Assembly (NCBI GenBank): GCA_907163375.1
Contig: CAJQUW010000459.1
Span: 310,001-374,000 of the forward strand
Length of the DNA stretch: 64,000 nucleotides
Direction: 5' to 3'
From: Prostheceraeus crozeri
Lineage: Eukaryota; Platyhelminthes; Polycladida; Euryleptidae
The notes below the pieces were generated by a model. It saw only the letters and a program-made list of their open reading frames with translations. It made no database searches and was not told the origin of the DNA. This document shows positions 1 through 49,942 of the stretch, in pieces. Both the position numbers and the translations under genes were made by a program. Each line of letters opens with the position of its first letter. Within the stretch, counting starts at the first letter, position 1.

Positions 1-343
1 TGATGGATGTCAGGTGCTGGAACGTATGCTTATGATTGCAATCTGTGTGCAATTTCGACCCAGGTTGAATGGTGGGTGAAAACTTGGTGCACTGGTGCAG
101 CATACCGTAGACGAACTGACTGTGAGGAGGTTTGGTAAAGAAGTTTGATCTAATGATTGCAAAACGTACGTCGGAGCATAGAAGTGAATGGCGTAGTGGA
201 TGCATTCATGATTGCTCTATGCGATTATGTTGTTGTTGTTGTTGGTGTGGTATTGTTTGTTAGTGTGAGAGGATGTTTCTGTTGTTGATGTAGTGAAGGC
301 ATGGATTGACTTTGTTGTTACATGTTTATATTTTCATTTCCAG

Positions 344-1037
344 AAGTGACGACTACAACTCCTCCAACGACCACTACAGGTAAGTGTCGATGAATGTATT
401 AGAGTTAGACTAGAAATCAGACAAATAGGATTGATTGATGGTTAATGTCCTATTTTTGGCACACCATGATTGTATGCTCGTATGATTGAATATCTTAAGT
501 TTGATGTATCGTGAGATATGAAGTGAAGTGATTTGCATTTTCTCTCTCTTTTCTCAACAGCCAAATGTGAGGCTATTGAGGGAATGGACAATGAGGTAAT
601 GCCATCTTCGATGCGTAGTTCGACGAAGAACGGTGACCCGCTGGATTTGTTGTGGGACGAGACAGCCGGTACGAATACAACGCTGCCCAGCATAGATGAA
701 GATGATGTCGTAGTCATTGAACTGCCATTCAGTAAGGATGAGTCATATGAAGCAACCGTGAATAAGGTTGAAGTTCTTGTTGCACCAAGCACGCCTGTGT
801 CAGGAAGTCAACGACCGCGCAAGATAAGAGTTGAAATAAAAGCTGTTGATGAGAATGGAAACGTCACGCTTCTTGAGAGATACTTGTCGAACGAGCCTTC
901 CGTTTCATCAGCAACACCAAGAAAGTTTGAACCAGTCTTGCCTTTTGATGGTGTCAAGGTGATCATAACGCTGACAGTCGAGGATGGGCCGAGTGGGAAC
1001 TTAGAAGTGTATGTGTCAATTGTCGGATGCTTTGAGA
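344..1037 (+). CDS. Unit 1: linker exon 344-379, domain exon 561-1037
   Basis: Acceptor TTTCCAG at 337-343, donor GTAAGT at 380; acceptor CTCAACAG ends at 560, donor GTAAGT at 1038. Key residues are Lys2 and Arg85. It is the only unit using GGA for Gly8. Next linker exon starts 1656 bp on. Confidence 0.85.
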
Positions 1038-4000
1038 GTAAGTACTGTGAATTGAAGGGTATGGGTGTGGGCCTAAATTTTGACAAAGTATCCTTGAATG
1101 TTTGAATGTTTAGATGTTTATGGTCATCAGTGCGAGGTTGGGCAACGCTCAGTCTTGTTAAATGTAGCAAACGTATAGAATTTGTATTTAGTTGATGAAT
1201 TTGTTGTTGGGCCTAGATTCCACTGTAAGCAATGTCGTGTGGAGCTAGGATGGAAGTCGTTTAAATTCTAAAATATTCCATTGTAAATGTACAAGAATAT
1301 TCATTCTTTCGGGAAGATGCGACGAGATCCGTTATCAATCTGGAGTCATTTATTATTGTTGGAATGAGTCTATTGTAAGATGTTGTTGTGTGTTCACATG
1401 TAAAAGAAGGGCGGCGTTAGTAGGGAACTTATCAGTTTTGGATATAAAATTGAATTGATACACATGTAGAAAGAGGGGATGATAAAGACATACTAGAATG
1501 TCTATTAGATGTAATTGCAACGGAGTACATTGATGGATCTCTAGTAGTGCGTTGAATATAGTTTGGTGAATTAGTTGAGTTGTATGAGGAATTGAGCATA
1601 GTAGAAAATGCTTGAACGATCATCGTGGAAACTGGCGGAGCGTTCGCATGCATGCTTGATGGATGTCAGGTGCTGGAACGTATGCTTATGATTGCAATCT
1701 GTGTGCAATTTCGACCCAGGTTGAATGGTGGGTGAAAACTTGGTGCACTGGTGCAGCATACCGTAGACGAACTGACTGTGAGGAGGTTTGGTAAAGAAGT
1801 TTGATCTAATGATTGCAAAACGTACGTCGGAGCATAGAAGTGAATGGCGTAGTGGATGCATTCATGATTGCTCTATGCGATTATGTTGTTGTTGTTGTTG
1901 GTGTGGTATTGTTTGTTAGTGTGAGAGGATGTTTCTGTTGTTGATGTAGTGAAGGCATGGATTGACTTTGTTGTTACATGTTTATATTTTCATTTCCAGA
2001 AGTGACGACTACAACTCCTCCAACGACCACTACAGGTAAGTGTCGATGAATGTATTAGAGTTAGACTAGAAATCAGACAAATAGGATTGATTGATGGTTA
2101 ATGTCCTATTTTTGGCACACCATGATTGTATGCTCGTATGATTGAATATCTTAAGTTTGATGTATCGTGAGATATGAAGTGAAGTGATTTGCATATTCTC
2201 TCTCTTTTCTCAACAGCCAAATGTGAGGCTATTGAGGGTATGGACAATGAGGTAATGCCATCTTCGATGCGTAGTTCGACGAAGAACGGTGACCCGCTGG
2301 ATTTGTTGTGGGACGAGACAGCCGGTACGAATACAACGCTGCCCAGCATAGATGAAGATGATGTCGTAGTCATTGAACTGCCATTCAGTAAGGATGAGTC
2401 ATATGAAGCAACCGTGAATAAGGTTGAAGTTCTTGTTGCACCAAGCACGCCTGTGTCAGGAAGTCAAGGACCGCGCAAGATAAGAGTTGAAATAAAAGCT
2501 GTTGATGAGAATGGAAACGTCACGCTTCTTGAGAGATACTTGTCGAACGAGCCTTCCGTTTCATCAGCAACACCAAGAAAGTTTGAACCAGTCTTGCCTT
2601 TTGATGGTGTCAAGGTGATCATAACGCTGACAGTCGAGGATGGGCCGAGTGGGAACTTAGAAGTGTATGTGTCAATTGTCGGATGCTTTGAGAGTAAGTA
2701 CTGTGAATTGAAGGGTATGGGTGTGGGCCTAAATTTTGACAAAGTATCCTTGAATGTTTGAATGTTTAGATGTTTATGGTCATCAGTGCGAGGTTGGGCA
2801 ACGCTCATTCTTGTTAAATGTAGCAAACGTATAGAATTTGTATTTAGTTGATGAATTTGTTGTTGGGCCTAGATTCCACTGTAAGCAATGTCGTGTGGAG
2901 CTAGGATGGAAGTCGTTTAAATTCTAAAATATTCCATTGTAAATGTACAAGAACATTCATTCTTTCGGGAAGATGCGACGAGATCCGTTATCAATCTGAA
3001 GTCATTTTTTATTGTTGGAATGAGTCTATTGTAAGATGTTGTTGTGTGTTCACATGTAAAAGAAGGGCGGCGTTAGTAGGGAACTTATCAGTTTTGGATA
3101 TAAAATTGAATTGATACACATGTAGAAAGAGGGGATGATAAAGACATACTAGAATGTCTATTAGATGTAATTGCAACGGAGTACATTGATGGATCTCTAG
3201 TAGTGCGTTGAATATAGTTTGGTGAATTAGTTGAGTTGTATGAGGAATTGAGCATAGTAGAAAATGCTTGAACGATCATCGTGGAAACTGGCGCAGCGTT
3301 CGCGTCCAGGCTTGATGGATGTCAGGTGCTGGAACGTATGCTTATGATTGCAATCTGTGTGCAATTTCGACCCAGGTTGAATGGTGGGTGAAAACTTTGT
3401 GCACTGGTGCAGCATACCGTAGACGAACTGACTGTGAGGAGGTTTGGTAAAGAAGTTTGATCTAATGATTGCAAAACGTACGTCGGAGCATAGAAGTGAA
3501 TGGCGTAGTGGATGCATTCATGATTGCTCTATGCGATTATGTTGTTGTTGTTGTTGGTGTGGTATTGTTTGTTAGTGTGAGAGGATGTTTCTGTTGTTGA
3601 TGTAGTGAAGGCATGGATTGACTTTGTTGTTACATGTTTATATTTTCATTTCCAGAAGTGACGACTACAACTCCTCCAACGACCACTACAGGTAAGTGTC
3701 GATGAATGTATTAGAGTTAGACTAGAAATCAGACAAATAGGATTGATTGATGGTTAATGTCGTATTTTTGGCACACCATGATTGTATGCTCGTATGATTG
3801 AATATCTTAAGTTTGATGTATCGTGAGATATGAAGTGAAGTGATTTGCATATTCTCTCTCTTTTCTCAACAGCCAAATGTGAGGCTATTGAGGGTATGGA
3901 CAATGAGGTAATGCCATCTTCGATGCGTAGTTCGACGAAGAACGGTGACCCGCTGGATTTGTTGTGGGACGAGACAGCCGGTACGAATACAACGCTGCCC

Positions 4001-7000
4001 AGCATAGATGAAGATGATGTCGTAGTCATTGAACTGCCATTCAGTAAGGATGAGTCATATGAAGCAACCGTGAATAAGGTTGAAGTTCTTGTTGCACCAA
4101 GCACGCCTGTGTCAGGAAGTCAAGGACCGCGCAAGATAAGAGTTGAAATAAAAGCTGTTGATGAGAATGGAAACGTCACGCTTCTTGAGAGATACTTGTC
4201 GAACGAGCCTTCCGTTTCATCAGCAACACCAAGAAAGTTTGAACCAGTCTTGCCTTTTGATGGTGTCAAGGTGATCATAACGCTGACAGTCGAGGATGGG
4301 CCGAGTGGGAACTTAGAAGTGTATGTGTCAATTGTCGGATGCTTTGAGAGTAAGTACTGTGAATTGAAGGGTATGGGTGTGGGCCTAAATTTTGACAAAG
4401 TATCCTTGAATGTTTGAATGTTTAGATGTTTATGGTCATCAGTGCGAGGTTGGGCAACGCTCATTCTTGTTAAATGTAGCAAACGTATAGAATTTGTATT
4501 TAGTTGATGAATTTGTTGTTGGGCCTAGATTCCACTGTAAGCAATGTCGTGTGGAGCTAGGATGGAAGTCGTTTAAATTCTAAAATATTCCATTGTAAAT
4601 GTACAAGAATATTCATTCTTTCGGGAAGATGCGACGAGATCCGTTATCAATCTGGAGTCATTTATTATTGTTGGAATGAGTCTATTGTAAGATGTTGTTG
4701 TGTGTTCACATGTAAAAGAAGGGCGGCGTTAGTAGGGAACTTATCAGTTTTGGATATAAAATTGAATTGATACACATGTAGAAAGAGGGGATGATAAAGA
4801 CATACTAGAATGTCTATTAGATGTAATTGCAACGGAGTACATTGATGGATCTGTAGCAGTGCGTTGAATATAGTTTGGTGAATTAGTTGAGTTGTATGAG
4901 GAATTGAGCATAGTAGAAAATGCTTGAACGATCATCGTGGAAACTGGCGGAGCGTTCGCGTCCAGGCTTGATGGATGTCAGGTGCTGGAACGTATGCTTA
5001 TGATTGCAATCTGTGTGCAATTTCGACCCAGGTTGAATGGTGGGTGAAAACTTGGTGCACTGGTGCAGCATGCCGTAGACGAACTGACTGTGAGGAGGTT
5101 TGGTAAAGAAGTTTGATCTAATGATTGCAAAACGTACGTCGGAGCATAGAAGTGAATGGCGTAGTGGATGCATTCATGATTGCTCTATGCGATTATGTTG
5201 TTGTTGTTGTTGTTGGTGTGGTATTGTTTGTTAGTGTGAGAGGATGTTTCTGTTGTTGATGTAGTGAAGGCATGGATTGACTTTGTTGTTACATGTTTAT
5301 ATTTTCATTTCCAGAAGTGACGACTACAACTCCTCCAACGACCACTACAGGTAAGTGTCGATGAATGTATTAGAGTTAGACTAGAAATCAGACAAATAGG
5401 ATTGATTGATGGTTAATGTCGTATTTTTGGCACACCATGATTGTATGCTCGTATGATTGAATATCTTAAGTTTGATGTATCGTGAGATATGAAGTGAAGT
5501 GATTTGCATATTCTCTCTCTTTTCTCAACAGCCAAATGTGAGGCTATTGAGGGTATGGACAATGAGGTAATGCCATCTTCGATGCGTAGTTCGACGAAGA
5601 ACGGTGACCCGCTGGATTTGTTGTGGGACGAGACAGCCGGTACGAATACAACGCTGCCCAGCATAGATGAAGATGATGTCGTAGTCATTGAACTGCCATT
5701 CAGTAAGGATGAGTCATATGAAGCAACCGTGAATAAGGTTGAAGTTCTTGTTGCACCAAGCACGCCTGTGTCAGGAAGTCAAGGACCGCGCAAGATAAGA
5801 GTTGAAATAAAAGCTGTTGATGAGAATGGAAACGTCACGCTTCTTGAGAGATACTTGTCGAACGAGCCTTCCGTTTCATCAGCAACACCAAGAAAGTTTG
5901 AACCAGTCTTGCCTTTTGATGGTGTCAAGGTGATCATAACGCTGACAGTCGAGGATGGGCCGAGTGGGAACTTAGAAGTGTATGTGTCAATTGTCGGATG
6001 CTTTGAGAGTAAGTACTGTGAATTGAAGGGTATGGGTGTGGGCCTAAATTTTGACAAAGTATCCTTGAATGTTTGAATGTTTAGATGTTTATGGTCATCA
6101 GTGCGAGGTTGGGCAACGCTCATTCTTGTTAAATGTAGCAAACGTATAGAATTTGTATTTAGTTGATGAATTTGTTGTTGGGCCTAGATTCCACTGTAAG
6201 CAATGTCGTGTGGAGCTAGGATGGAAGTCGTTTAAATTCTAAAATATTCCATTGTAAATGTACAAGAATATTCATTCTTTCGGGAAGATGCGACGAGATC
6301 CGTTATCAATCTGGAGTCATTTATTATTGTTGGAATGAGTCTATTGTAAGATGTTGTTGTGTGTTCACATGTAAAAGAAGGGCGGCGTTAGTAGGGAACT
6401 TATCAGTTTTGGATATAAAATTGAATTGATACACATGTAGAAAGAGGGGATGATAAAGACATACTAGAATGTCTATTAGATGTAATTGCAACGGAGTACA
6501 TTGATGGATCTGTAGCAGTGCGTTGAATATAGTTTGGTGAATTAGTTGAGTTGTATGAGGAATTGAGCATAGTAGAAAATGCTTGAACGATCATCGTGGA
6601 AACTGGCGGAGCGTTCGCGTCCAGGCTTGATGGATGTCAGGTGCTGGAACGTATGCTTATGATTGCAATCTGTGTGCAATTTCGACCCAGGTTGAATGGT
6701 GGGTGAAAACTTGGTGCACTGGTGCAGCATACCGTAGACGAACTGACTGTGAGGAGGTTTGGTAAAGAAGTTTGATCTAATGATTGCAAAACGTACGTCG
6801 GAGCATAGAAGTGAATGGCGTAGTGGATGCATTCATGATTGCTCTATGCGATTATGTTGTTGTTGTTGTTGTTGGTGTGGTATTGTTTGTTAGTGTGAGA
6901 GGATGTTTCTGTTGTTGATGTAGTGAAGGCATGGATTGACTTTGTTGTTACATGTTTATATTTTCATTTCCAGAAGTGACGACTACAACTCCTCCAACGA

Positions 7001-10000
7001 CCACTGCAGGTAAGTGTCGATGAATGTATTAGAGTTAGACTAGAAATCAGACAAATAGGATTGATTGATGGTTAATGTCGTATTTTTGGCACACCATGAT
7101 TGTATGCTCGTATGATTGAATATCTTAAGTTTGATGTATCGTGAGATATGAAGTGAAGTGATTTGCATATTCTCTCTCTTTTCTCAACAGCCAAATGTAA
7201 GGCTATTGAGGGTATGGACAATGAGGTAATGCCATCTTCGATGCGTAGTTCGACGAAGAACGGTGACCCGCTGGATTTGTTGTGGGACGAGACAGCCGGT
7301 ACGAATACAACGCTGCCCAGCATAGATGAAGATGATGTCGTAGTCATTGAACTGCCATTCAGTAAGGATGAGTCATATGAAGCAACCGTGAATAAGGTTG
7401 AAGTTCTTGTTGCACCAAGCACGCCTGTGTCAGGAAGTCAAGGACCGCGCAAGATAAGAGTTGAAATAAAAGCTGTTGATGAGAATGGAAACGTCACGCT
7501 TCTTGAGAGATACTTGTCGAACGAGCCTTCCGTTTCATCAGCAACACCAAGAAAGTTTGAACCAGTCTTGCCTTTTGATGGTGTCAAGGTGATCATAACG
7601 CTGACAGTCGAGGATGGGCCGAGTGGGAACTTAGAAGTGTATGTGTCAATTGTCGGATGCTTTGAGAGTAAGTACTGTGAATTGAAGGGTATGGGTGTGG
7701 GCCTAAATTTTGACAAAGTATCCTTGAATGTTTGAATGTTTAGATGTTTATGGTCATCAGTGCGAGGTTGGGCAACGCTCAGTCTTGTTAAATGTAGCAA
7801 ACGTATAGAATTTGTATTTAGTTGATGAATTTGTTGTTGGGCCTAGATTCCACTGTAAGCAATGTCGTGTGGAGCTAGGATGGAAGTCGTTTAAATTCTA
7901 AAATATTCCATTGTAAATGTACAAGAATATTCATTCTTTCGGGAAGATGCGACGAGATCCGTTATCAATCTGGAGTCATTTATTATTGTTGGAATGAGTC
8001 TATTGTAAGATGTTGTTGTGTGTTCACATGTAAAAGAAGGGCGGCGTTAGTAGGGAACTTATCAGTTTTGGATATAAAATTGAATTGATACACATGTAGA
8101 AAGAGGGGATGATAAAGACATACTAGAATGTCTAGTAGATGTAATTGCAACGGAGTACATTGATGGATCTGTAGCAGTGCGTTGAATATAGTTTGGTGGA
8201 TTAGTTGAGTTGTATGAGGAATTGAGCATAGTAGAAAATGCTTGAACGATCATCGTGGAAACTGGCGCAGCGTTCGCGTCCAGGCTTGATGGATGTCAGG
8301 TGCTGGAACGTATGCTTATGATTGCAATCTGTGTGCAATTTCGACCCAGGTTGAATGGTGGGTGAAAACTTGGTGCACTGGTGCAGCATACCGTAGACGA
8401 ACTGACTGTGAGGAGGTTTGGTAAAGAAGTTTGATCTAATGATTGCAAAACGTACGTCGGAGCATAGAAGTGAATGGCGTAGTGGATGCATTCATGATTG
8501 CTCTATGCGATTATGTTGTTGTTGTTGTTGGTGTGGTATTGTTTGTTAGTGTGAGAGGATGTTTCTGTTGTTGATGTAGTGAAGGCATGGATTGACTTTG
8601 TTGTTACATGTTTATATTTTCATTTCCAGAAGTGACGACTACAACTCCTCCAACGACCACTACAGGTAAGTGTCGATGAATGTATTAGAGTTAGACTAGA
8701 AATCAGACAAATAGGATTGATTGATGGTTAATGTCGTATTTTTGGCACACCATGATTGTATGCTCGTATGATTGAATATCTTAAGTTTGATGTATCGTGA
8801 GATATGAAGTGAAGTGATTTGCATATTCTCTCTCTTTTCTCAACAGCCAAATGTGAGGCTATTGAGGGTATGGACAATGAGGTAATGCCATCTTCGATGC
8901 GTAGTTCGACGAAGAACGGTGACCCGCTGGATTTGTTGTGGGACGAGACAGCCGGTACGAATACAACGCTGCCCAGCATAGATGAAGATGATGTCGTAGT
9001 CATTGAACTGCCATTCAGTAAGGATGAGTCATATGAAGCAACCGTGAATAAGGTTGAAGTTCTTGTTGCACCAAGCACGCCTGTGTCAGGAAGTCAACGA
9101 CCGCGCAAGATAAGAGTTGAAATAAAAGCTGTTGAGGAGAATGGAAACGTCACGCTTCTTGAGAGATACTTGTCGAACGAGCCTTCCGTTTCATCAGCAA
9201 CACCAAGAAAGTTTGAACCAGTCTTGCCTTTTGATGGTGTCAAGGTGATCATAACGCTGACAGTCGAGGATGGGCCGAGTGGGAACTTAGAAGTGTATGT
9301 GTCAATTGTCGGATGCTTTGAGAGTAAGTACTGTGAATTGAAGGGTATGGGTGTGGGCCTAAATTTTGACAAAGTATCCTTGAATGTTTGAATGTTTAGA
9401 TGTTTATGGTCATCAGTGCGAGGTTGGGCAACGCTCATTCTTGTTAAATGTAGCAAACGTATAGAATTTGTATTTAGTTGATGAATTTGTTGTTGGGCCT
9501 AGATTCCCCTGTAAGTAATGTCGTGTGGAGCTAGGATGGAAGTCGTTTAAATTCTAAAATATTCCATTGTAAATGTACAAGAATATTCATTCTTTCGGGA
9601 AGATGCGACGAGATCCGTTATCAATCTGGAGTCATTTATTATTGTTGGAATGAGTCTATTGTAAGATGTTGCTGTGTGTTCACATGTAAAAGAAGGGCGG
9701 CGTTAGTAGGGAACTTATCAGTTTTGGATATAAAATTGAATTGATACATATGTAGAAAGAGGGGATGATAAAGACATACTAGAATGTCTAGTAGATGTAA
9801 TTGCAACGGAGTACATTGATGGATCTCTAGTAGTGTGTTGAATATAGTTTGGTGGATTAGTTGAGTTGTATGAGGAATTGAGCATAGTAGAAAATGCTTG
9901 AACGATCATCGTGGAAACTGGCGCAGCGTTCGCGTCCAGGCTTGATGGATGTCAGGTGCTGGAACGTATGCTTATGATTGCAATCTCTGTGCAATTTCGA

Positions 10001-30065: not shown

Positions 30066-30096
<31 letters not shown>

Positions 30097-33000: not shown

Positions 33001-35066
33001 TAAAGAGATACTAGAATGTCTAGTAGATGTAATTGCAACGGGGTACATTGATGGATCTGTAGTAGTGAGCTGAATATAGTTTGGTGAATTAGTTGAGTTG
33101 TATGAGGAATTGAGCATAGTAGAAAATGCTTGAACGATCATCGTGGAAACTGGCGGAGCGTTTGCGTGCATGCTTGATGGATGTCAGGTGCCGGAACGTA
33201 TGCTTATGATTGCAATCTGTGTGCAATTTTGACCCAGGTTGAATGGTGGGTGAAAACTTTGTGCACTGGTGCAGCATACCGTAGACGAACTGACTGTGAG
33301 GAGGTTTGGTAAAGAAGTTTGATCTAATGATTGCAAAACGTACGTCGGAGCATAGAAGTGAATGGCGTAGTGGACGCATTCATGATTGCTCTATGCGATT
33401 ATGTTGTTGTTGTTGTTGTTGTTGTTGGTGTGGTATTGTTTGTTAGTGTGAGAGGATGTTTCTGTTATTGATATAGTGAAGGCATGGATTGACTTTGTTG
33501 TTATATGTTTATATTTTCATTTCCAGAAGTGACGACTACAACTCCTCCAACGACCACTACAGGTAAGTGTCGATGAATGTATTAGAGTTAGACTAGAAAT
33601 CAGACAAATAGGATTGATTGATGGTTAATGCCGTATTTTTGGCACACCATGATTGTATGCTCGTATGATTGAATATCTTAAGTTTGATGTATCGTGAGAT
33701 ATGAAGTGAAGTGATTTGCATATTCTCTCTCTTTTCTCAACAGCCAAATGTGAGGCTATTGAGGGTATGGACAATGAGGTAATGCCATCTTCGATGCGTA
33801 GTTCGACGAAGAACGGTGACCCGCTGGATTTGTTGTGGGACGAGACAGCCGGTACGAATACAACGCTGCCCAGCATAGATGAAGATGATGTCGTAGTCAT
33901 TGAACTGCCATTCAGTAAGGATGAGTCATATGAAGCAACCGTGAATAAGGTTGAAGTTCTTGTTGCACCAAGCACGCCTGTGTCAGGAAGTCAACGACCG
34001 CGCAAGATAAGAGTTGAAATAAAAGCTGTTGATGAGAATGGAAACGTCACGCTTCTTGAGAGATACTTGTCGAACGAGCCTTCCGTTTCATCAGCAACAC
34101 CAAGAAAGTTTGAACCAGTCTTGCCTTTTGATGGTGTCAAGGTGATCATAACGCTGACAGTCGAGGATGGGCCGAGTGGGAACTTAGAAGTGTATGTGTC
34201 AATTGTCGGATGCTTTGAGAGTAAGTACTGTGAATTGAAGGGTATGGGTGTGGGCCTAAATTTTGACAAAGTATCCTTGAATGTTTGAATGTTTAGATGT
34301 TTATGGTCATCAGTGCGAGGTTGGGCAACGCTCATTCTTGTTAAATGTAGCAAACGTATAGAATTTGTATTTAGTTGATGAATTTGTTGTTGGGCCTAGA
34401 TTCCCCTGTAAGTAATGTCGTGTGGAGCTAGGATGGAAGTCGTTTAAATTCTAAAATATTCCATTGAAAATGTACAAGAATATTCATTCTTTCGGGAAGA
34501 TGCGACGAGATCCGTTATCAATCTGGAGTCATTTTTTATTGTTGGAATGAGTCTATTGTAAGATGTTGCTGTGTGTTCACATGTAAAAGAAGGGCGGCGT
34601 TAGTAGGGAACTTATCAGTTTTCGATATAAAATTGAATTGATACACATGTAGAAAGAGGGGATGATAAAGAGATACTAGAATGTCTAGTAGATGTAATTG
34701 CAACGGAGTACATTGATGGATCTCTAGTAGTGCGTTGAATATAGTTTGGTGGATTAGTTGAGTTGTATGAGGAATTGAGCATAGTAGAAAATGCTTGAAC
34801 GATCATCGTGGAAACTGGCGGAGCGTTCACATGCATGCTTGATGGATGTCAGGTGCTGGAACGTATGCTTATGATTGCAATCTGTGTGCAATTTCGACCC
34901 AGGTTGAATGGTGGGTGAAAACTTGGTGCACTGGTGCAGCATACCGTAGACGAACTGACTGTGAGGAGGTTTGGTAAAGAAGTTTGATCTAATGATTGCA
35001 AAACGTACGTCGGAGCATAGAAGTGAATGGCGTAGTGGACGCATTCATGATTGCTCTATGCGATTA

Positions 35067-35100
<34 letters not shown>

Positions 35101-38100
35101 GGTGTGGTATTGTTTGTTAGTGTGAGAGGATGTTTCTGTTATTGATGTAGTGAAGGCATGGATTGACTTTGTTGTTATATGTTTATATTTTCATTTCCAG
35201 AAGTGACGACTACAACTCCTCCAACGACCACTACAGGTAAGTGTCGATGAATGTATTAGAGTTAGACTAGAAATCAGACAAATAGGATTGATTGATGGTT
35301 AATGCCGTATTTTTGGCACACCATGATTGTATGCTCGTATGATTCAATATCTTAAGTTTGATGTATCGTGAGATATGAAGTGAAGTGATTTGCATACTCT
35401 CTCTTTCTTTTCTCAACAGCCAAATGTGAGGCTATTGAGGGTATGGACAATGAGGTAATGCCATCTTCGATGCGTAGTTCGACGAAGAACGGTGACCCGC
35501 TGGATTTGTTGTGGGACGAGACAGCCGGTACGAATACAACGCTGCCCAGCATAGATGAAGATGATGTCGTAGTTATTGAACTGCCATTCAGTAAGGATGA
35601 GTCATATGAAGCAACCGTGAATAAGGTTGAAGTTCTTGTTGCACCAAGCACGCCTGTGTCAGGAAGTCAACGACCGCGCAAGATAAGAGTTGAAATAAAA
35701 GCTGTTGATGAGAATGGAAACGTCACGCTTCTTGAGAGATACTTGTCGAACGAGCCTTCCGTTTCATCAGCAACACCAAGAAAGTTTGAACCAGTCTTGC
35801 CTTTTGATGGTGTCAAGGTGATCATAACGCTGACAGTCGAGGATGGGCCGAGTGGGAGCTTAGAAGTGTATGTGTCAATTGTCGGATGCTTTGAAAGTAA
35901 GTACTGTGAATTGAAGGGTATGGGTGTGGGCCTAAATTTTGACAAAGTATCCTTGAATGTTTGAATGTTTAGATGTTTATGGTCATCAGTGCGAGGTTGG
36001 GCAACGCTCATTCTTGTTAAATGTAGCAAACGTATAGAATTTGTATTTAGTTGATGAATTTGTTGTTGGGCCTAGATTCCCCTGTAAGTAATGTCGTGTG
36101 GAGCTAGGATGGAAGTCGTTTAAATTCTAAAATATTCCATTGAAAATGTACAAGAATATTCATTCTTTCGGGAAGATGCGACGAGATCCGTTATCAATCT
36201 GGAGTCATTTATTATTGTTGGAATGAGTCTATTGTAAGATGTTGCTGTGTGTTCACATGTAAAAGAAGAGCGGCGTTAGTAGGGAACTTATCAGTTTTGG
36301 ATATAAAATTGAATTGATACACATGTAGAAAGAGGGGATGATAAAGAGATACTAGAATGTCTAGTAGATGTAATTGCAACGGGGTACATTGATGGATCTG
36401 TAGTAGTGAGCTGAATATAGTTTGGTGAATTAGTTGAGTTGTATGAGGAATTGAGCATAGTAGAAAATGCTTGAACGATCATCGTGGAAACTGGCGGAGC
36501 GTTTGCGTGCATGCTTGATGGATGTCAGGTGCCGGAACGTATGCTTATGATTGCAATCTGTGTGCAATTTTGACCCAGGTTGAATGGTGGGTGAAAACTT
36601 TGTGCACTGGTGCAGCATACCGTAGACGAACTGACTGTGAGGAGGTTTGGTAAAGAAGTTTGATCTAATGATTGCAAAACGTACGTCGGAGCATAGAAGT
36701 GAATGGCGTAGTGGACGCATTCATGATTGCTCTATGCGATTATGTTGTTGTTGTTGTTGTTGTTGTTGTTGGTGGTGGTGGTGTGGTATTGTTTGTTAGT
36801 GTGAGAGGATGTTTCTATTATTGATATAGTGAAGGCATGGATTGACTTTGTTGTTATATGTTTATATTTTCATTTCCAGAAGTGACGACTACAACTCCTC
36901 CAACGACCACTACAGGTAAGTGTCGATGAATGTATTAGAGTTAGACTAGAAATCAGACAAATAGGATTGATTGATGGTTAATGCCGTATTTTTGGCACAC
37001 CATGACTGTATGCTCGTATGATTGAATATCTTAAGTTTGATGTATCGTGAGATATGAAGTGAAGTGATTTGCATATTCTCTCTCTTTTCTCAACAGCCAA
37101 ATGTGAGGCTATTGAGGGTATGGACAATGAGGTAATGCCATCTTCGATGCGTAGTTCGACGAAGAACGGTGACCCGCTGGATTTGTTGTGGGACGAGACA
37201 GCCGGTACGAATACAACGCTGCCCAGCATAGATGAAGATGATGTCGTAGTCATTGAACTGCCATTCAGTAAGGATGAGTCATATGAAGCAACCGTGAATA
37301 AGGTTGAAGTTCTTGTTGCACCAAGCACGCCTGTGTCAGGAAGTCAACGACCGCGCAAGATAAGAGTTGAAATAAAAGCTGTTGATGAGAATGGAAACGT
37401 CACGCTTCTTGAGAGATACTTGTCGAACGAGCCTTCCGTTTCATCAGCAACACCAAGAAAGTTTGAACCAGTCTTGCCTTTTGATGGTGTCAAGGTGATC
37501 ATAACGCTGACAGTCGAGGATGGGCCGAGTGGGAACTTAGAAGTGTATGTGTCAATTGTCGGATGCTTTGAGAGTAAGTACTGTGAATTGAAGGGTATGG
37601 GTGTGGGCCTAAATTTTGACAAAGTATCCTTGAATGTTTGAATGTTTAGATGTTTATGGTCATCAGTGCGAGGTTGGGCAACGCTCATTCTTGTTAAATG
37701 TAGCAAACGTATAGAATTTGTATTTAGTTGATGAATTTGTTGTTGGGCCTAGATTCCCCTGTAAGTAATGTCGTGTGGAGCTAGGATGGAAGTCGTTTAA
37801 ATTCTAAAATATTCCATTGAAAATGTACAAGAATATTCATTCTCTCGGGAAGATGCGACGAGATCCGTTATCAATCTGGAGTCATTTTTTATTGTTGGAA
37901 TGAGTCTATTGTAAGATGTTGTTGTGTGTTCACATGTAAAAGAAGAGCGGCGTTAGTAGGGAACTTATCAGTTTTGAATATAAAATTGAATTGATACACA
38001 TGTAGAAAGAGGGGATGATAAAGAGATATTAGAATGTCTAGTAGATGTAATTGCAACGGGGTACATTGATGGATCTGTAGTAGTGAGCTGAATATAGTTT

Positions 38101-41100
38101 GGTGAATTAGTTGAGTTGTATGAGGAATTGAGCATAGTAGAAAATGCTTGAACGATCATCTTGGAAACTGGCGGAGCGTTCGCGTCCAGGCTTGATGGAT
38201 GTCAGTTGCCGGAACGTATGCTTATGATTGCAATCTGTGTGCAATTTCGACCCAGGTTGAATGGTGGGTGAAAACTTTGTGCACTGGTGCAGCATACCGT
38301 AGACGAACTGACTGTGAGGAGGTTTGGTAAAGAAGTTTGATCTAATGATTGCAAAACGTACGTCGGAGCATAGAAGTGAATGGCGTAGTGGACGCATTCA
38401 TGATTGCTCTATGCGATTATGTTGTTGTTGTTGTTGTTGTTGGTGTGGTATTGTTTGTTAGTGTGAGAGGATGTTTCTGTTATTGATATAGTGAAGGCAT
38501 GGATTGACTTTGTTGTTATATGTTTATATTTTCATTTCCAGAAGTGACGACTACAACTCCTCCAACGACCACTACAGGTAAGTGTCGATGAATGTATTAG
38601 AGTTAGACTAGAAATCAGACAAATAGGATTGATTGATGGTTAATGCCGTATTTTTGGCACACCATGATTGTATGCTCGTATGATTGAATATCTTAAGTTT
38701 GATGTATCGTGAGATATGAAGTGAAGTGATTTGCATATTCTCTCTCTTTTCTCAACAGCCAAATGTGAGGCTATTGAGGGTATGGACAATGAGGTAATGC
38801 CATCTTCGATGCGTAGTTCGACGAAGAACGGTGACCCGCTGGATTTGTTGTGGGACGAGACAGCCGGTACGAATACAACGCTGCCCAGCATAGATGAAGA
38901 TGATGTCGTAGTCATTGAACTGCCATTCAGTAAGGATGAGTCATATGAAGCAACCGTGAATAAGGTTGAAGTTCTTGTTGCACCAAGCACGCCTGTGTCA
39001 GGAAGTCAACGACCGCGCAAGATAAGAGTTGAAATAAAAGCTGTTGATGAGAATGGAAACGTCACGCTTCTTGAGAGATACTTGTCGAACGAGCCTTCCG
39101 TTTCATCAGCAACACCAAGAAAGTTTGAACCAGTCTTGCCTTTTGATGGTGTCAAGGTGATCATAACGCTGACAGTCGAGGATGGGCCGAGTGGGAACTT
39201 AGAAGTGTATGTGTCAATTGTCGGATGCTTTGAAAGTAAGTACTGTGAATTGAAGGGTATGGGTGTGGGCCTAAATTTTGACAAAGTATCCTTGAATGTT
39301 TGAATGTTTAGATGTTTATGGTCATCAGTGCGAGGTTGGGCAACGCTCATTCTTGTTAAATGTAGCAAACGTATAGAATTTGTATTTAGTTGATGAATTT
39401 GTTGTTGGGCCTAGATTCCCCTGTAAGTAATGTCGTGTGGAGCTAGGATGGAAGTCGTTTAAATTCTAAAATATTCCATTGAAAATGTACAAGAATATTC
39501 ATTCTTTCGGGAAGATGCGACGAGATCCGTTATCAATCTGGAGTCATTTATTATTGTTGGAATGAGTCTATTGTAAGATGTTGCTGTGTGTTCACATGTA
39601 AAAGAAGAGCGGCGTTAGTAGGGAACTTATCAGTTTTGGATATAAAATTGAATTGATACACATGTAGAAAGAGGGGATGATAAAGAGATACTAGAATGTC
39701 TAGTAGATGTAATTGCAACGGGGTACATTGATGGATCTGTAGTAGTGAGCTGAATATAGTTTGGTGAATTAGTTGAGTTGTATGAGGAATTGAGCATAGT
39801 AGAAAATGCTTGAACGATCATCGTGGAAACTGGCGGAGCGTTTGCGTGCATGCTTGATGGATGTCAGGTGCCGGAACGTATGCTTATGATTGCAATCTGT
39901 GTGCAATTTTGACCCAGGTTGAATGGTGGGTGAAAACTTTGTGCACTGGTGCAGCATACCGTAGACGAACTGACTGTGAGGAGGTTTGGTAAAGAAGTTT
40001 GATCTAATGATTGCAAAACGTACGTCGGAGCATAGAAGTGAATGGCGTAGTGGATGCATTCATGATTGCTCTATGCGATTATGTTGTTGTTGTTGTTGTT
40101 GTTGTTGTTGGTGGTGTGGTATTGTTTGTTAGTGTGAGAGGATGTTTCTGTTGTTGATGTAGTGAAGGCATGGATTGACTTTGTTGTTATATGTTTATAT
40201 TTTCATTTCCAGAAGTGACGACTACAACTCCTCCAACGACCACTACAGGTAAGTGTCGATGAATGTATTAGAGTTAGACTAGAAATCAGACAAATAGGAT
40301 TGATTGATGGTTAATGCCGTATTTTTGGCACACCATGATTGTATGCTCGTATGATTGAATATCTTAAGTTTGATGTATCGTGAGATATGAAGTGAAGTGA
40401 TTTGCATATTCTCTCTCTTTTCTCAACAGCCAAATGTGAGGCTATTGAGGGTATGGACAATGAGGTAATGCCATCTTCGATGCGTAGTTCGACGAAGAAC
40501 GGTGACCCGCTGGATTTGTTGTGGGACGAGACAGCCGGTACGAATACAACGCTGCCCAGCATAGATGAAGATGATGTCGTAGTCATTGAACTGCCATTCA
40601 GTAAGGATGAGTCATATGAAGCAACCGTGAATAAGGTTGAAGTTCTTGTTGCACCAAGCACGCCTGTGTCAGGAAGTCAACGACCGCGCAAGATAAGAGT
40701 TGAAATAAAAGCTGTTGATGAGAATGGAAACGTCACGCTTCTTGAGAGATACTTGTCGAACGAGCCTTCCGTTTCATCAGCAACACCAAGAAAGTTTGAA
40801 CCAGTCTTGCCTTTTGATGGTGTCAAGGTGATCATAACGCTGACAGTCGAGGATGGGCCGAGTGGGAACTTAGAAGTGTATGTGTCAATTGTCGGATGCT
40901 TTGAGAGTAAGTACTGTGAATTGAAGGGTATGGGTGTGGGCCTAAATTTTGACAAAGTATCCTTGAATGTTTGAATGTTTAGATGTTTATGGTCATCAGT
41001 GCGAGGTTGGGCAACGCTCATTCTTGTTAAATGTAGCAAACGTATAGAATTTGTATTTAGTTGATGAATTTGTTGTTGGGCCTAGATTCCCCTGTAAGTA

Positions 41101-43758
41101 ATGTCGTGTGGAGCTAGGATGGAAGTCGTTTAAATTCTAAAATATTCCATTGAAAATGTACAAGAATATTCATTCTTTCGGGAAGATGCGACGAGATCCG
41201 TTATCAATCTGGAGTCATTTTTTATTGTTGGAATGAGTCTATTGTAAGATGTTGTTGTGTGTTCACATGTAAAAGAAGAGCGGCGTTAGTAGGGAACTTA
41301 TCAGTTTTGGATATAAAATTGAATTGATACACATGTAGAAAGAGGGGATGATAAAGAGATACTAGAATGTCTAGTAGATGTAATTGCAACGGGGTACATT
41401 GATGGATCTGTAGTAGTGAGCTGAATATAGTTTGGTGAATTAGTTGAGTTGTATGAGGAATTGAGCATAGTAGAAAATGCTTGAACGATCATCTTGGAAA
41501 CTGGCGGAGCGTTCGCGTCCAGGCTTGATGGATGTCAGGTGCCGGAACGTATGCTTATGATTGCAATCTGTGTGCAATTTCGACCCAGGTTGAATGGTGG
41601 GTGAAAACTTTGTGCACTGGTGCAGCATACCGTAGACGAACTGACTGTGAGGAGGTTTGGTAAAGAAGTTTGATCTAATGATTGCAAAACGTACGTCGGA
41701 GCATAGAAGTGAATGGCGTAGTGGACGCATTCATGATTGCTCTATGCGATTATGTTGTTGTTGTTGTTGTTGTTGGTGTGGTATTGTTTGTTAGTGTGAG
41801 AGGATGTTTCTGTTATTGATATAGTGAAGGCATGGATTGACTTTGTTGTTATATGTTTATATTTTCATTTCCAGAAGTGACGACTACAACTCCTCCAACG
41901 ACCACTACAGGTAAGTGTCGATGAATGTATTAGAGTTAGACTAGAAATCAGACAAATAGGATTGATTGATGGTTAATGCCGTATTTTTGGCACACCATGA
42001 TTGTATGCTCGTATGATTGAATATCTTAAGTTTGATGTATCGTGAGATATGAAGTGAAGTGATTTGCATATTCTCTCTCTTTTCTCAACAGCCAAATGTG
42101 AGGCTATTGAGGGTATGGACAATGAGGTAATGCCATCTTCGATGCGTAGTTCGACGAAGAACGGTGACCCGCTGGATTTGTTGTGGGACGAGACAGCCGG
42201 TACGAATACAACGCTGCCCAGCATAGATGAAGATGATGTCGTAGTCATTGAACTGCCATTCAGTAAGGATGAGTCATATGAAGCAACCGTGAATAAGGTT
42301 GAAGTTCTTGTTGCACCAAGCACGCCTGTGTCAGGAAGTCAACGACCGCGCAAGATAAGAGTTGAAATAAAAGCTGTTGATGAGAATGGAAACGTCACGC
42401 TTCTTGAGAGATACTTGTCGAACGAGCCTTCCGTTTCATCAGCAACACCAAGAAAGTTTGAACCAGTCTTGCCTTTTGATGGTGTCAAGGTGATCATAAC
42501 GCTGACAGTCGAGGATGGGCCGAGTGGGAACTTAGAAGTGTATGTGTCAATTGTCGGATGCTTTGAGAGTAAGTACTGTGAATTGAAGGGTATGGGTGTG
42601 GGCCTAAATTTTGACAAAGTATCCTTGAATGTTTGAATGTTTAGATGTTTATGGTCATCAGTGCGAGGTTGGGCAACGCTCATTCTTGTTAAATGTAGCA
42701 AACGTATAGAATTTGTATTTAGTTGATGAATTTGTTGTTGGGCCTAGATTCCCCTGTAAGTAATGTCGTGTGGAGCTAGGATGGAAGTCGTTTAAATTCT
42801 AAAATATTCCATTGAAAATGTACAAGAATATTCATTCTTTCGGGAAGATGCGACGAGATCCGTTATCAATCTGGAGTCATTTATTATTGTTGGAATGAGT
42901 CTATTGTAAGATGTTGTTGTGTGTTCACATGTAAAAGAAGAGCGGCGTTAGTAGGGAACTTATCAGTTTTGGATATAAAATTGAATTGATACACATGTAG
43001 AAAGAGGGGATGATAAAGAGATACTAGAATGTCTAGTAGATGTAATTGCAACGGAGTACATTGATGGATCTCTAGTAGTGCGTTGAATATAGTTTGGTGA
43101 ATTAGTTGAGTTGTATGAGGAATTGAGCATAGTAGAACATGCTTGAACGATCATCGTGGAAACTGGCGGAGCGTTTGCGTGCATGCTTGATGGATGTCAG
43201 GTGCTGGAACGTATGCTTATGATTGCAATCTGTGTGCAATTTCGACCCAGGTTGAATGGTGGGTGAAAACTTGGTGCACTGGTGCAGCATACCGTAGACG
43301 AACTGACTGTGACGAGGTTTGGTAAAGAAGTTTGATCTAATGATTGCAAAACGTACGTCGGAGCATAGAAGTGAATGGCGTAGTGGACGCATTCATGATT
43401 GCTCTATGCGATTATGTTGTTGTTGTTGTTGGTGTGGTATTGTTTGTTAGTGTGAGAGGATGTTTCTGTTATTAATGTTGTGAAGGCATGGATTGACTTT
43501 GTTGTTATATGTTTATATTTTCATTTCCAGAAGTGACGACTACAACTCCTCCAACGACCACTACAGGTAAGTGTCGATGAATGTATTAGAGTTAGACTAG
43601 AAGTCAGACAAATAGGATTGATTGATGGTTAATGCCGTATTTTTGGCACACCATGATTGTATGCTCGTATGATTGAATGTCTTAAGTTTGATGTATCGTG
43701 AGATATGAAGTGAAGTGATTTGCATTTTCTCTCTCTTTTCTCAACAGCCAAATGTTGA
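344..43758 (+). CDS. Giant tandem-exon gene: mucin-like repeat protein with Thr-rich linkers (5'-partial)
   Basis: The gene model joins 27 linker exons and 26 domain exons, then CC AAA TGT TGA at 43748-43758. All introns are phase 1: exon B ends in A, exon A starts AA (making Lys) and ends G, and exon B starts CC (making Ala). Each unit therefore adds 171 residues, and coding in view is 13,374 nt before the terminal stub. All 26 domain exons are open and every junction has AG and GTAAGT or GTGAGT. In the domain, Cys3 and Cys157 bracket 159 residues with a single Trp32 and sequons at Asn39 and Asn101. Alternating hydrophobic stretches in the second half suggest a beta-sandwich. Cys at both ends with a closing GCFE recalls discoidin/F5-8C-like domains in secreted invertebrate mucins; this is inference from pattern only. 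The linkers should be O-glycosylated. No signal peptide or promoter is visible because the 5' end is outside. The C-terminus at 43758 is tentative. Confidence 0.82.
2000..2693 (+). CDS. Unit 2: linker exon 2000-2035, domain exon 2217-2693
   Basis: Same splice sites as unit 1. Domain carries Lys2 and Gly85 (GGA instead of CGA). First of a run of four Gly85 units (2-5). Spacing to unit 3 is 1656 bp. Confidence 0.85.
3656..4349 (+). CDS. Unit 3: linker exon 3656-3691, domain exon 3873-4349
   Basis: Domain protein identical to unit 2 (Lys2, Gly85). Spacing to unit 4 is 1659 bp because of one extra GTT in the long intron. Confidence 0.85.
5315..6008 (+). CDS. Unit 4: linker exon 5315-5350, domain exon 5532-6008
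   Basis: Domain protein identical to units 2 and 3. Spacing to unit 5 is 1659 bp. Confidence 0.85.
6974..7667 (+). CDS. Unit 5: linker exon 6974-7009, domain exon 7191-7667
   Basis: The only unit with a changed linker (ACA to GCA, last Thr to Ala) and the only one with Lys4 instead of Glu4 next to the first cysteine. Gly85. Reading frame and splice sites are intact. Confidence 0.85.
8630..9323 (+). CDS. Unit 6: linker exon 8630-8665, domain exon 8847-9323
   Basis: Arg85 with Glu97 (GAG) instead of Asp97, a variant shared only with unit 8. The following long intron shares many private changes with the one after unit 8, marking a duplicated two-unit block. Confidence 0.85.
10289..10982 (+). 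CDS. Unit 7: linker exon 10289-10324, domain exon 10506-10982
   Basis: First unit whose linker exon uses donor GTGAGT. Arg85, Asp97. Pyrimidine tract before the domain exon reads GTGCATTTTC as in unit 9. Second member of the duplicated block 6-7. Confidence 0.85.
11945..12638 (+). CDS. Unit 8: linker exon 11945-11980, domain exon 12162-12638
   Basis: Arg85 and Glu97, identical in protein to unit 6; donor GTAAGT. First member of the second copy of the two-unit block. Confidence 0.85.
13601..14294 (+). CDS. Unit 9: linker exon 13601-13636, domain exon 13818-14294
   Basis: Flanking introns match unit 7, including donor GTGAGT, but residue 85 is Gly rather than Arg. This suggests conversion of the exon after block duplication, or mutation. 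Confidence 0.85.
15257..15950 (+). CDS. Unit 10: linker exon 15257-15292, domain exon 15474-15950
   Basis: Glu2 (GAA) instead of Lys2, Arg85, and the silent CCAAGT form of Pro43-Ser44, seen again only in units 15 and 17. Donor GTAAGT. Spacing to unit 11 is 1665 bp. Confidence 0.85.
16922..17615 (+). CDS. Unit 11: linker exon 16922-16957, domain exon 17139-17615
   Basis: Lys2, Gly85 (the last Gly85 unit in the array), linker donor GTGAGT. The preceding GTT tract is extended by GGTGGT. Confidence 0.85.
18578..19271 (+). CDS. Unit 12: linker exon 18578-18613, domain exon 18795-19271
   Basis: Glu2, Arg85, donor GTGAGT. From here to the end of the array all units carry Arg85. Confidence 0.85.
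20236..20941 (+). CDS. Unit 13: linker exon 20236-20271, domain exon 20465-20941
   Basis: Lys2, Arg85. The short intron is 12 bp longer than usual because GATT is repeated three extra times near 20323-20343. Confidence 0.85.
21903..22596 (+). CDS. Unit 14: linker exon 21903-21938, domain exon 22120-22596
   Basis: Lys2, Arg85, silent GTG at Val132 (shared with units 16 and 17), donor GTGAGT. Confidence 0.85.
23564..24257 (+). CDS. Unit 15: linker exon 23564-23599, domain exon 23781-24257
   Basis: Glu2, Arg85, silent CCAAGT at residues 43-44, donor GTGAGT. Confidence 0.85.
25222..25915 (+). CDS. Unit 16: linker exon 25222-25257, domain exon 25439-25915
   Basis: Glu2, Arg85, GTG at Val132. 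The long intron has a 7-bp deletion at about 26058 that it shares only with unit 17, giving 1651-bp spacing. Confidence 0.85.
26873..27566 (+). CDS. Unit 17: linker exon 26873-26908, domain exon 27090-27566
   Basis: Glu2, unique Asp12 (GAT) instead of Glu12, CCAAGT at 43-44 and GTG at Val132. It mixes variants of units 15 and 16. The 7-bp long-intron deletion recurs near 27709. Confidence 0.85.
28524..29219 (+). CDS. Unit 18: linker exon 28524-28559, domain exon 28743-29219
   Basis: Ser147 (AGC) instead of Asn147 and exon end TTTGAAA. The pyrimidine tract before the domain exon is rearranged and 2 bp longer (CATACTCTCTCTTTC). All of these recur in unit 22, 6.68 kb downstream. First unit of the four-unit block. 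Confidence 0.85.
30200..30893 (+). CDS. Unit 19: linker exon 30200-30235, domain exon 30417-30893
   Basis: Consensus domain (Lys2, Arg85, Asn147). Following intron carries GTTTTGAATAT at about 31294, shared only with unit 23. Confidence 0.85.
31862..32555 (+). CDS. Unit 20: linker exon 31862-31897, domain exon 32079-32555
   Basis: Consensus domain protein, identical to unit 19. The introns match unit 24 in the four-unit block. Confidence 0.85.
33527..34220 (+). CDS. Unit 21: linker exon 33527-33562, domain exon 33744-34220
   Basis: Consensus domain protein. The following long intron has the longest GTT tract of the array (11 copies at 35068-35100). Confidence 0.85.
35068..35100 (+). repeat. 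GTT microsatellite in the long intron, longest allele (11 copies)
   Basis: Each long intron has a GTT tract about 105-150 bp before the next linker exon, from about 4 to 11 copies, sometimes interrupted by GGT. Most of the unit-length variation in the array comes from it. Other long tracts are at 30066-30098 and 36741-36782. Confidence 0.9.
35201..35896 (+). CDS. Unit 22: linker exon 35201-35236, domain exon 35420-35896
   Basis: Carries the unit-18 signature (Ser147, TTTGAAA end, 2-bp longer pyrimidine tract) plus a private silent GTT at Val52. First unit of the second copy of the four-unit block. Confidence 0.85.
36880..37573 (+). CDS. Unit 23: linker exon 36880-36915, domain exon 37097-37573
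   Basis: Consensus domain protein. Introns match unit 19. Preceding intron has a GTT tract followed by repeated GGT (36741-36782), and spacing from unit 22 is 1679 bp, the largest seen. Confidence 0.85.
38542..39235 (+). CDS. Unit 24: linker exon 38542-38577, domain exon 38759-39235
   Basis: Consensus domain protein, with TTTGAAA at the exon end as in units 18 and 22. Unit 20, its block partner, has TTTGAGA, so a small conversion tract or independent mutation is likely. Confidence 0.85.
40213..40906 (+). CDS. Unit 25: linker exon 40213-40248, domain exon 40430-40906
   Basis: Consensus domain protein. Fourth member of the second four-unit block. Its long intron resembles that of units 19 and 23 rather than its block partner 21. 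Confidence 0.85.
41875..42568 (+). CDS. Unit 26: linker exon 41875-41910, domain exon 42092-42568
   Basis: Last complete domain exon, consensus protein, donor GTAAGT at 42569. The following long intron is still highly similar to the others, so divergence begins only in unit 27. Confidence 0.85.
43531..43758 (+). CDS. Unit 27: linker exon 43531-43566 and truncated terminal exon with stop (43748-43758)
   Basis: The linker exon and its GTAAGT donor are intact, and so is the CTCAACAG acceptor ending at 43747. After CCAAATGT the sequence jumps to a short novel piece, then to what is normally the start of the long intron (GAATTGAAGGG). Roughly 470 bp of domain exon is missing. Read in phase 1, the exon gives Ala-Lys-Cys then TGA at 43756-43758. 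This could be the true C-terminus, leaving an unpaired cysteine. Alternatively it is a dead edge unit, and the last linker splices to an exon not recognised downstream. Confidence 0.6.
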
Positions 43759-44290
43759 CAATTTTGACTTTGAATTGAAGGGTATGGGTGTAGGCGTAAG
43801 TTTTGACAAAGTATCCTTGAATGTTTGAATGTTTAAATGTTCATGGTCATCAGCGCGAGGTTGGGCAACGCTCAGTCTTGTTAGATGTAGCAAACCTATA
43901 GAATTTGTATTTAGTTGATGAATTTGTTGTTGGGCCTAGATTCCAGTGTAAGTAATGTCGTGTGGAGCTAGAACAGAAGTCGTATAAATTCTACGATATT
44001 CCATTTTCAATGTTATTTGTAGATTTAATATTCATTTTTGTACGTGACCATGCTTTCCGACGGTTTGCGAGATTCATCGTTTTTTCTTTGACCTGTGTTT
44101 TTTCATACCCGAACATCTGGTCTACCCTGACGGCACAACTAAAATCATGTTCATGTCACAGGGTTTGTTCAAACACCAGAATGTACAGTCGATGTAATTG
44201 CAACAGAGCAGGTAGTTATCTTTGTTATAGCTTGATGGATGTAGGTGCAGAAAATTGAATTGTACATTTTGAATGTAGTTTGGTTAATTA
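43759..44290 (+). other. Degenerate right edge of the array
   Basis: 43766-44030 aligns by eye with the array's long intron with many changes. Small matches return around 44185-44290 (GATGTAATTGCAAC, GAATGTAGTTTGGTTAATTAGTTG). No AATAAA signal was seen just after the possible stop at 43758. Confidence 0.8.
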
Positions 44291-49900: not shown

Positions 49901-49917
49901 GAGAAAATTATTTTCTC
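49901..49917. other. Short perfect hairpin in the right tail of the Penelope-like insertion
   Basis: GAGAAAA and TTTTCTC flank a TTA loop, in the 78-bp tail present only at the right end. Role unknown. Confidence 0.5.
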
Positions 49918-49927
49918 ATTTCACTAA

Positions 49928-49942
49928 ATTTCTTGTAGCGTT
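49928..49942 (+). repeat. Right target-site duplication, ATTTCTTGTAGCGTT
   Basis: 15-bp perfect match to 47595-47609. RTE reading resumes directly to its right. Confidence 0.85.

Follow-up and report, generated by a model that had tools for sequence, protein, structure and literature searches.

Adhesion protein 2 of the flatworm Macrostomum lignano (Mlig-ap2) is described as a protein of 14,794 residues bearing Gal-beta(1-3)-GalNAc, and adhesion is abolished when it is knocked down (PMC6410801). For Mile-ap2 of Minona, an exon of at least 15 kb has been reported (PMC6745481). The description of chick SCO-spondin lists EMI, three VWD, one FA5/8C, LDLa, TIL, TSR, vWF-C, EGF and CTCK domains (PMC8487547). 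Here we examined a stretch of 64,000 nucleotides from the polyclad flatworm Prostheceraeus crozeri (the window), which corresponds to positions 310001-374000 of contig CAJQUW010000459.1, designated C381 (window coordinate = C381 coordinate - 310000). The window harbours the greater part of a tandem array of exon pairs, array 1, in which a domain exon encoding a two-cysteine domain alternates with a linker exon. In our view, the array is likely to form the repetitive core of a gene for a very large secreted glycoprotein of the SCO-spondin or flatworm adhesion-protein-2 (ap2) kind, and the region probably makes up a single, very large gene whose giant product, secreted and sugar-coated, forms glue or mucus.

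The 3' part of array 1 occupies window positions 1..43566 on the + strand, as determined from the period of the sequence and by mapping of exons. Each unit of about 1.66 kb consists, in this order, of intron 1 (~0.96 kb), a linker exon (36 nt), intron 2 (~0.18 kb) and a domain exon (477 nt), and the units of the array are spaced 1651-1677 bp apart. When self-identity was calculated at 4,700 lags, the top 15 lags were all near one, two or three times 1656. Tandem Repeats Finder reported no repeat for the window because the longest period searched, 500, lies below the unit length. The 26 domain exons in the window (561..42568, + strand; starts 561, 2217, 3873, 5532, 7191, 8847, 10506, 12162, 13818, 15474, 17139, 18795, 20465, 22120, 23781, 25439, 27090, 28743, 30417, 32079, 33744, 35420, 37097, 38759, 40430 and 42092) encode one two-cysteine domain each. 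All 26 are open, 477 nt long and of phase 1-1, and are bordered by the acceptor CTCAACAG and the donor GTAAGT. The 27 linker exons of 36 nt, also of phase 1-1 (344..43566, + strand; starts 344, 2000, 3656, 5315, 6974, 8630, 10289, 11945, 13601, 15257, 16922, 18578, 20236, 21903, 23564, 25222, 26873, 28524, 30200, 31862, 33527, 35201, 36880, 38542, 40213, 41875 and 43531), follow the acceptor ATTTCCAG and precede GTAAGT or GTGAGT. They code KVTTTTPPTTTT, except for the one at 6974, whose end reads TTTA. Since linker and domain exons are both phase 1-1, the reading frame is kept whatever the number of units. A unit thus contributes 171 residues, 159 of an acidic domain and 12 of a Thr/Pro linker. 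An earlier note on this DNA had claimed at least 26 near-identical, open exon pairs with proper splice sites in units of 1.66 kb, amounting to about 4,460 residues; our mapping verified 26 domain and 27 linker exons, and 26 x 171 + 12 gives 4,458 residues.

At its 3' edge the array ends in a broken unit, the 27th in the window (43531..43758, + strand). Linker and intron 2 are intact and the acceptor is followed by CCAAATGT and then TGA, the rest of the domain exon being deleted. If the broken unit is spliced in, the protein would end in ...TTTTAKC; were it skipped instead, the donor of the linker could be spliced to the phase-1 acceptor that follows. A remnant of intron 1 (43759..44005, + strand; a 230-base alignment with 93% identity to the unit start) marks the 3' edge of array 1. 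The end placed at 43758 by the earlier note is the TGA of this unit. The array comprises 34 units rather than those in view, starting about 13 kb to the left of the window, and eight more units lie downstream.

These additional copies were found by searching the 2.05-Gb assembly (14,165 contigs) with the domain exon, which gave 44 scored candidates and 42 matches. Every one of the 42 copies lies on C381, 34 in array 1 and eight in a second array, array 2. The matches of array 1 extend over C381:297294-352561, with eight to the left of the window, the first about 13 kb before it, and 26 inside, so that the window holds 26 of the 34 domain exons and 27 of the 35 linkers, the 3' three-quarters of the array. 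Array 2 (C381:423206-435195) has eight units of 91-93% identity about 70 kb downstream of array 1, and all eight of its linkers equal the commonest linker of array 1. In both arrays together, AG before and GT after the exon were present in 37/37 domain exons (those of the 42 that carry the exact search word) and in 43/43 linkers, whose donors were GTAAGT in 34 cases and GTGAGT in nine. Upstream of array 1 we found a diverged single copy of the domain (C381:283230-283679), with 24% identity, the same phases and Cys at both ends. Two older relic units lie at about C381:286600-287050 and 288520-288960; both have an intact variant linker, VTPTVTPTGRVTTT, and a decayed domain exon in which similarity is lost after about 20 residues, and the two look like near-duplicates. 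A whole-genome search with the diverged domain returned itself alone (one candidate), in a search whose first pass seems to need near-exact words, and for this reason more distant paralogues may exist elsewhere in the genome.

We then compared 40 whole units over both arrays, 33 of them in array 1, counting 1143 intron columns after 41 length-variable columns had been set aside. Variable columns in array 1 were fewer in the domain exon than in the introns (12/477 and 94/1143, P = 7.6e-6). At nonsynonymous sites variation was five-fold lower than in introns (6/364 against 94/1143, P = 1.4e-6) and also lower than at silent sites (6/110, P = 0.037), whereas synonymous variation was not depressed against introns (P = 0.36). 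Because amino-acid-changing sites are depressed relative to introns and silent sites are not, the pattern in array 1 is the one expected when purifying selection acts on the protein in an array that is homogenised. None of the 42 domain copies contains an internal stop, which together with the nonsynonymous count supports the proposal that the array belongs to a functional coding gene. Gap columns among the 40 aligned units numbered 0 in exons and eight in the counted introns, a difference that alone is not significant (P = 0.064). The 34 copies of array 1 encode seven distinct domains, and 16 copies are identical. High identity and a regular period are also what a non-coding satellite or an assembly artefact with incidental open frames would display. 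We regard this as highly improbable, for the constraint is confined to exons, consensus splice sites are present in every copy examined, the pairwise matrix contains unit-specific variants, and the diverged array 2 has kept the commonest linker throughout.

Divergence between the two arrays amounts to 11% in the introns and 3.4% in the domain exon, with next to none in the linker. It is lower in the 3' half of the unit, of which intron 2 is a part, than in intron 1; differences at silent sites (2/110) are fewer than in intron 1 (108/937, P = 0.0005) and do not differ significantly from those in intron 2 (9/181, P = 0.22). As intron 2 is also less diverged, low exon divergence between arrays is no main evidence for coding. 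Exchange between the arrays, suggested by the low divergence of the whole 3' half, explains their likeness at least as well as selection. Recent block duplications are visible in the pairwise matrix, for example units 27-29 against 31-33 (two to three differences) and unit 15 against 17 (one difference). In the window, units 26 and 30 of the array, four apart and with linker starts at 28524 and 35201, share an altered end of intron 2, which reads FAYSLF ahead of the exon, and a change from N to S in the domain. Over their full length, however, these two units differ at 23 sites, a combination that suggests mosaic exchange. A TTG microsatellite in intron 1, about 100-140 bp before the linker exon, differs in length between two neighbouring units compared, and seems to be the source of much of the difference in unit spacing. 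In the mechanism that we propose, unequal crossing-over and gene conversion would keep the exon pairs alike. With phase 1-1 exon pairs, copy number can change by unequal crossing-over with the frame unbroken, and the same process would explain the likeness of both introns and exons. Arrangements of this kind exist in unrelated domains. The kringle IV-2 region of LPA is an intragenic tandem array with two exons and their introns in each unit of about 5.5 kb, and in DMBT1 an SRCR domain exon alternates with a Ser/Thr-rich linker exon (SID); DMBT1 is not known to have a giant exon rich in Pro, Thr and Ser.

Concerning the repeated domain, the exon encodes Cys at residues 2 and 156 of 158 whole codons, and the copy examined has sequons at 38 (NTT) and 100 (NVT). 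The calculated pI of one domain is 4.3 and its charge -14. The earlier note had not matched the domain with certainty to a named family and had proposed profile and structure-prediction searches. No Pfam family matched the array domain (at E limits of 5 and 10) or the diverged copy (E up to 10), and the array domain did not match the F5/8 type C profile (PF00754). A genome search with PF00754 gave at least 144 matches (150 of 271 candidates scored), none on C381 among the matches listed; some of them show two domains within one open frame. The best hit among PDB sequences had an E value of 0.62, which was taken as chance. In a set of 5.8 billion proteins, no match was scored among 81 candidates for the array domain (E 1), 136 for the diverged copy (E 10) or 71 for the VWD exon of this locus used as a control (E 1e-5). 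Since even the control found nothing, the set seems to contain few animal relatives, and the absence of matches does not make the array domain an orphan. Structure prediction without an alignment gave a pLDDT of 63 and a mixed list of hits with many viral jelly-rolls. With a four-sequence alignment, the pLDDT rose to 76 and the model was a beta-sandwich closest, among the families listed by VIA-align, to galactose-binding-like domains. To judge from the model, the array domain, for which no Pfam family was found, is probably galactose-binding-like, with a Cys near each end. We take this fold group to include CBM32, CBM6/35, XRCC1-N, DOC and IFT25.

A giant exon rich in Pro, Thr and Ser (PTS exon) lies between the arrays at C381:402312-420062 on the + strand. 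Its 17,751 nt contain 5,916 whole open codons (5,954 from stop to stop), with 32% T, 23% S and 23% P, and 304 exact copies of PPPSTTRVTGST. The acceptor AATTTTCAG/AAAGAGTG is of phase 1, as is the donor CTGACAG/GTATTT, which was read by eye. Because both splice phases are 1, as in the linker exon, the PTS exon may be an overgrown linker. It encodes 390 Lys and Arg residues against two Asp and Glu, giving a calculated charge of +388 and a calculated pI of 12. A long tandem-repeat domain of Pro, Thr and Ser in one large exon is a feature of secreted mucins, and the block is presumably O-glycosylated, judging from its sequence. The term mucin-like, which had been applied to the array, therefore suits the gene through this exon outside the window, but not the array itself, with its 159 acidic domain residues for every 12 of Thr/Pro. 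Two long open reading frames (ORFs) are present between array 1 and the PTS exon (C381:383459-385186 and 396156-397139, both - strand), which we take to resemble a Tc1/mariner transposase in one case and another mobile-element protein in the other. ORF pieces at window 49916-50437 and about 54470-54670 (both - strand) look to us like non-LTR retrotransposon reverse transcriptase; in Pfam, the former had no convincing match. Similar stretches lie at C381:438.4k-441k, and those closely similar to the latter piece occur downstream of array 2.

The flanks of the arrays were scanned on the + strand for exons with splice sites. From 38 cysteine-rich candidates, 17 chosen by eye were sent to Pfam, together with one further exon, a VWD-like exon and the last two exons. 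Eleven of the 17 scored over the family cut-off, three only below it, and three had no match. VWD (C381:255.1k, E 3.4e-23), C8 (257.4k, E 2.7e-12) and TIL (261.9k, E 1e-7) follow one another as one assembly, and five LDLa exons over the cut-off lie at C381:266.2k-277.1k. On the far side, TSP1 exons were found over the cut-off at C381:451.2k, 458.7k and 465.4k and below it at 467.8k and 474.3k, and TIL-like exons below it at 475.9k (23.2 of 24.5 bits) and 477.1k (19.6). The last two exons (C381:~481.87-482.05k and ~483.49-483.66k, ending in TAA) are a cystine-knot-like candidate, whose cysteine spacing we take to resemble CTCK. All modules are on the + strand, in the order VWD, C8, TIL, LDLa, diverged domain, array 1, PTS exon, array 2, TSP1/TIL-like and cystine-knot-like end. 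The exons are phase 1-1 from the LDLa exons through the first TSP1 exon, and the modules together span at least 251 kb. Array 1, the PTS exon and array 2 alone would amount to 5,814 + 5,917 + 1,368 = 13,099 residues. This exon inventory supports the giant protein claimed before. The locus is most economically read as coding for a polyclad flatworm's ap2-like protein; one transcript would join the exons from VWD to the cystine-knot-like end, with domain order as the ground for joining array 1 to the PTS exon.

A number of observations weigh against this reading. The last unit of array 1 contains an in-frame TGA, and 48.7 kb with transposon-like ORFs separate the last linker of the array from the PTS exon, whose donor, GTATTT, departs from the GTRAG consensus (no GTRAG donor was listed there). 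A further VWD at C381:232.5k (+ strand) is weak (18.9 bits, below the cut-off of 22.9), three module-like exons at 249.4k, 253.3k and 459.9k (+ strand) have no Pfam match, and the cystine-knot candidate exons had none at E up to 1 and 10. The hits in Foldseek's own list for the domain were weak (TM mostly 0.3-0.5), and viral jelly-rolls were interspersed among them. Consensus differences between the arrays are not depressed at amino-acid-changing sites (14/364, compared with 2/110 silent; P = 0.38, dN/dS about 2), and on these counts positive selection between the arrays was rejected as well. An adhesive or mucus function, finally, is suggested by analogy, its sole basis. Taking into account the gap and the TGA, two neighbouring genes derived from a split ancestor are possible. 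Gene A (VWD-C8-TIL-LDLa-array 1) would end at the TGA of the broken unit, directly after the last acceptor of array 1, and gene B (PTS exon, array 2, TSP1/TIL, cystine knot) would start in the intervening DNA. Five AATAAA/ATTAAA words at C381:355920-356922 would agree with this, such words being common in AT-rich DNA, and in limpet pedal mucus P-vulgata_3 and P-vulgata_6 are reported as separate sequences (PMC7333891). On the other hand, the left and right sets together make up one known architecture, that of SCO-spondin and Mlig-ap2, and the phase-1 acceptor of the PTS exon needs an upstream coding exon. We therefore consider two genes unlikely; the TGA may also reflect two isoforms.

If the exons do form a single ap2-like gene, a mechanism for its product can be proposed. 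The VWD and knot ends would join molecules into multimers, and the LDLa and TSP1 modules would bind partners. Between them, 42 acidic galactose-binding-like modules (pI 4.3) and a basic O-glycosylated block of 5,916 residues (pI 12) would constitute a block polyampholyte; with glycans left out, the net charge of the two arrays would come to about -550 (42 units at -13.2 each), on either side of the +388 of the PTS block. The opposite charges would help the protein to condense in secretory granules and to form a cohesive gel once released. If the acidic domains bind sugars like their fold-relatives, they could bind the O-glycans of the PTS block or surfaces, and the protein would act in mucus or temporary adhesion by gelling and binding glycans or surfaces. 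Our tentative proposal, which we put forward with considerable doubt, is that a gene of the SCO-spondin lineage came to encode a glue that is a block polyampholyte and exceeds 13,000 residues. In it, arrays of acidic sugar-binding-like modules (34 + 8) would flank a strongly basic, single-exon mucin block, a single molecule could bear O-glycans as well as bind them and condense by charge, and gain and loss of exon pairs would tune block length between individuals. Giant repetitive adhesives and mucins tend to break up in short-read data, and here exon anatomy and homogenisation are both readable.

Apart from this locus, we noted a COX1 gene on contig C6227 (15936-17282, - strand) with TGA in frame, read as Trp (eight in the match and 11 in a longer frame). 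Compared with PDB chain 8d4t_N, AGA falls on a Ser position and AAA, read as Asn, on an Asn position, and under table 9 the open frame has a long N-terminal extension. From its sequence, the codon use fits the echinoderm/flatworm mitochondrial code.

In vertebrate SCO-spondin the F5/8C domain lies between LDLa and TSP1, matching the place of the array domain here. The locus also has the VWD-C8-TIL assembly, tandem LDLa after VWD, and TSP1 with TIL-like exons (the latter below the cut-off) on the C side, and the cystine-knot end of SCO-spondin may have its counterpart in the cystine-knot-like candidate. It could thus be a genuine SCO-spondin orthologue with a role in the nervous system or ciliary fluid, its repeats a lineage-specific swelling at the F5/8C position; SCO-spondin-like staining or expression has been described in radial glia of an oweniid annelid, enteropneusts, echinoderms and priapulids (PMC5543218). 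We think this improbable, since EMI, EGF and vWF-C exons were not identified at the locus and, among the systems compared, such a repeat core is described in ap2-type adhesives only. In addition, the description of the chick protein gives one FA5/8C domain and names no mucin block (PMC8487547), whereas here there are 42 array domains and a diverged one. Against the three VWD domains of vertebrates, one VWD here scored over the cut-off (255.1k) and one below (232.5k). Where SCO-spondin keeps a single F5/8C domain, one module has here been amplified as exon pairs and another as a 17.75-kb exon. SCO-spondin-like sets also occur in the adhesive mucus of the limpet, as VWD/C8/TIL/LDLa in P-vulgata_3 and TSP1 with a cystine knot in P-vulgata_6, two shorter sequences for which the report describes no array of this kind (PMC7333891).

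The ap2 proteins, to which our preferred reading assigns the product of this locus, were compared by description. Mile-ap2 and Tmed-ap2 (Theama) likewise have a long repeat core that is Thr-rich or rich in O-glycosylation motifs, with TSP1 and TIL, but their repeats, 12 or more in Mile-ap2 and 8 + 12 in Tmed-ap2, are of other lengths (PMC6745481, PMC9229212); Tmed-ap2 is described as lysine-rich (PMC9229212). Mlig-ap2 is, like the product proposed here, a giant secreted glycoprotein with VWD, TIL and LDLa on the N side, central repeats in two blocks and TSP1 on the C side (PMC6410801), a layout found at this locus and, in our reading, in a single transcript. One gene here would link flatworm ap2 adhesives to SCO-spondin through shared domain order, propose a fold for repeats that have hitherto been described as having no known function, and offer a concrete charge-block model for wet glue or mucus. 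The repeats of Mlig-ap2 are 21 of 255 aa and 25 of 221 aa, against 171 aa here (PMC6410801). Unlike in Mlig-ap2 as described, the repeat of P. crozeri consists of a predicted folded domain and a Thr/Pro linker, each with its own exon, and a PTS block of 5.9 thousand residues lies between the two arrays.
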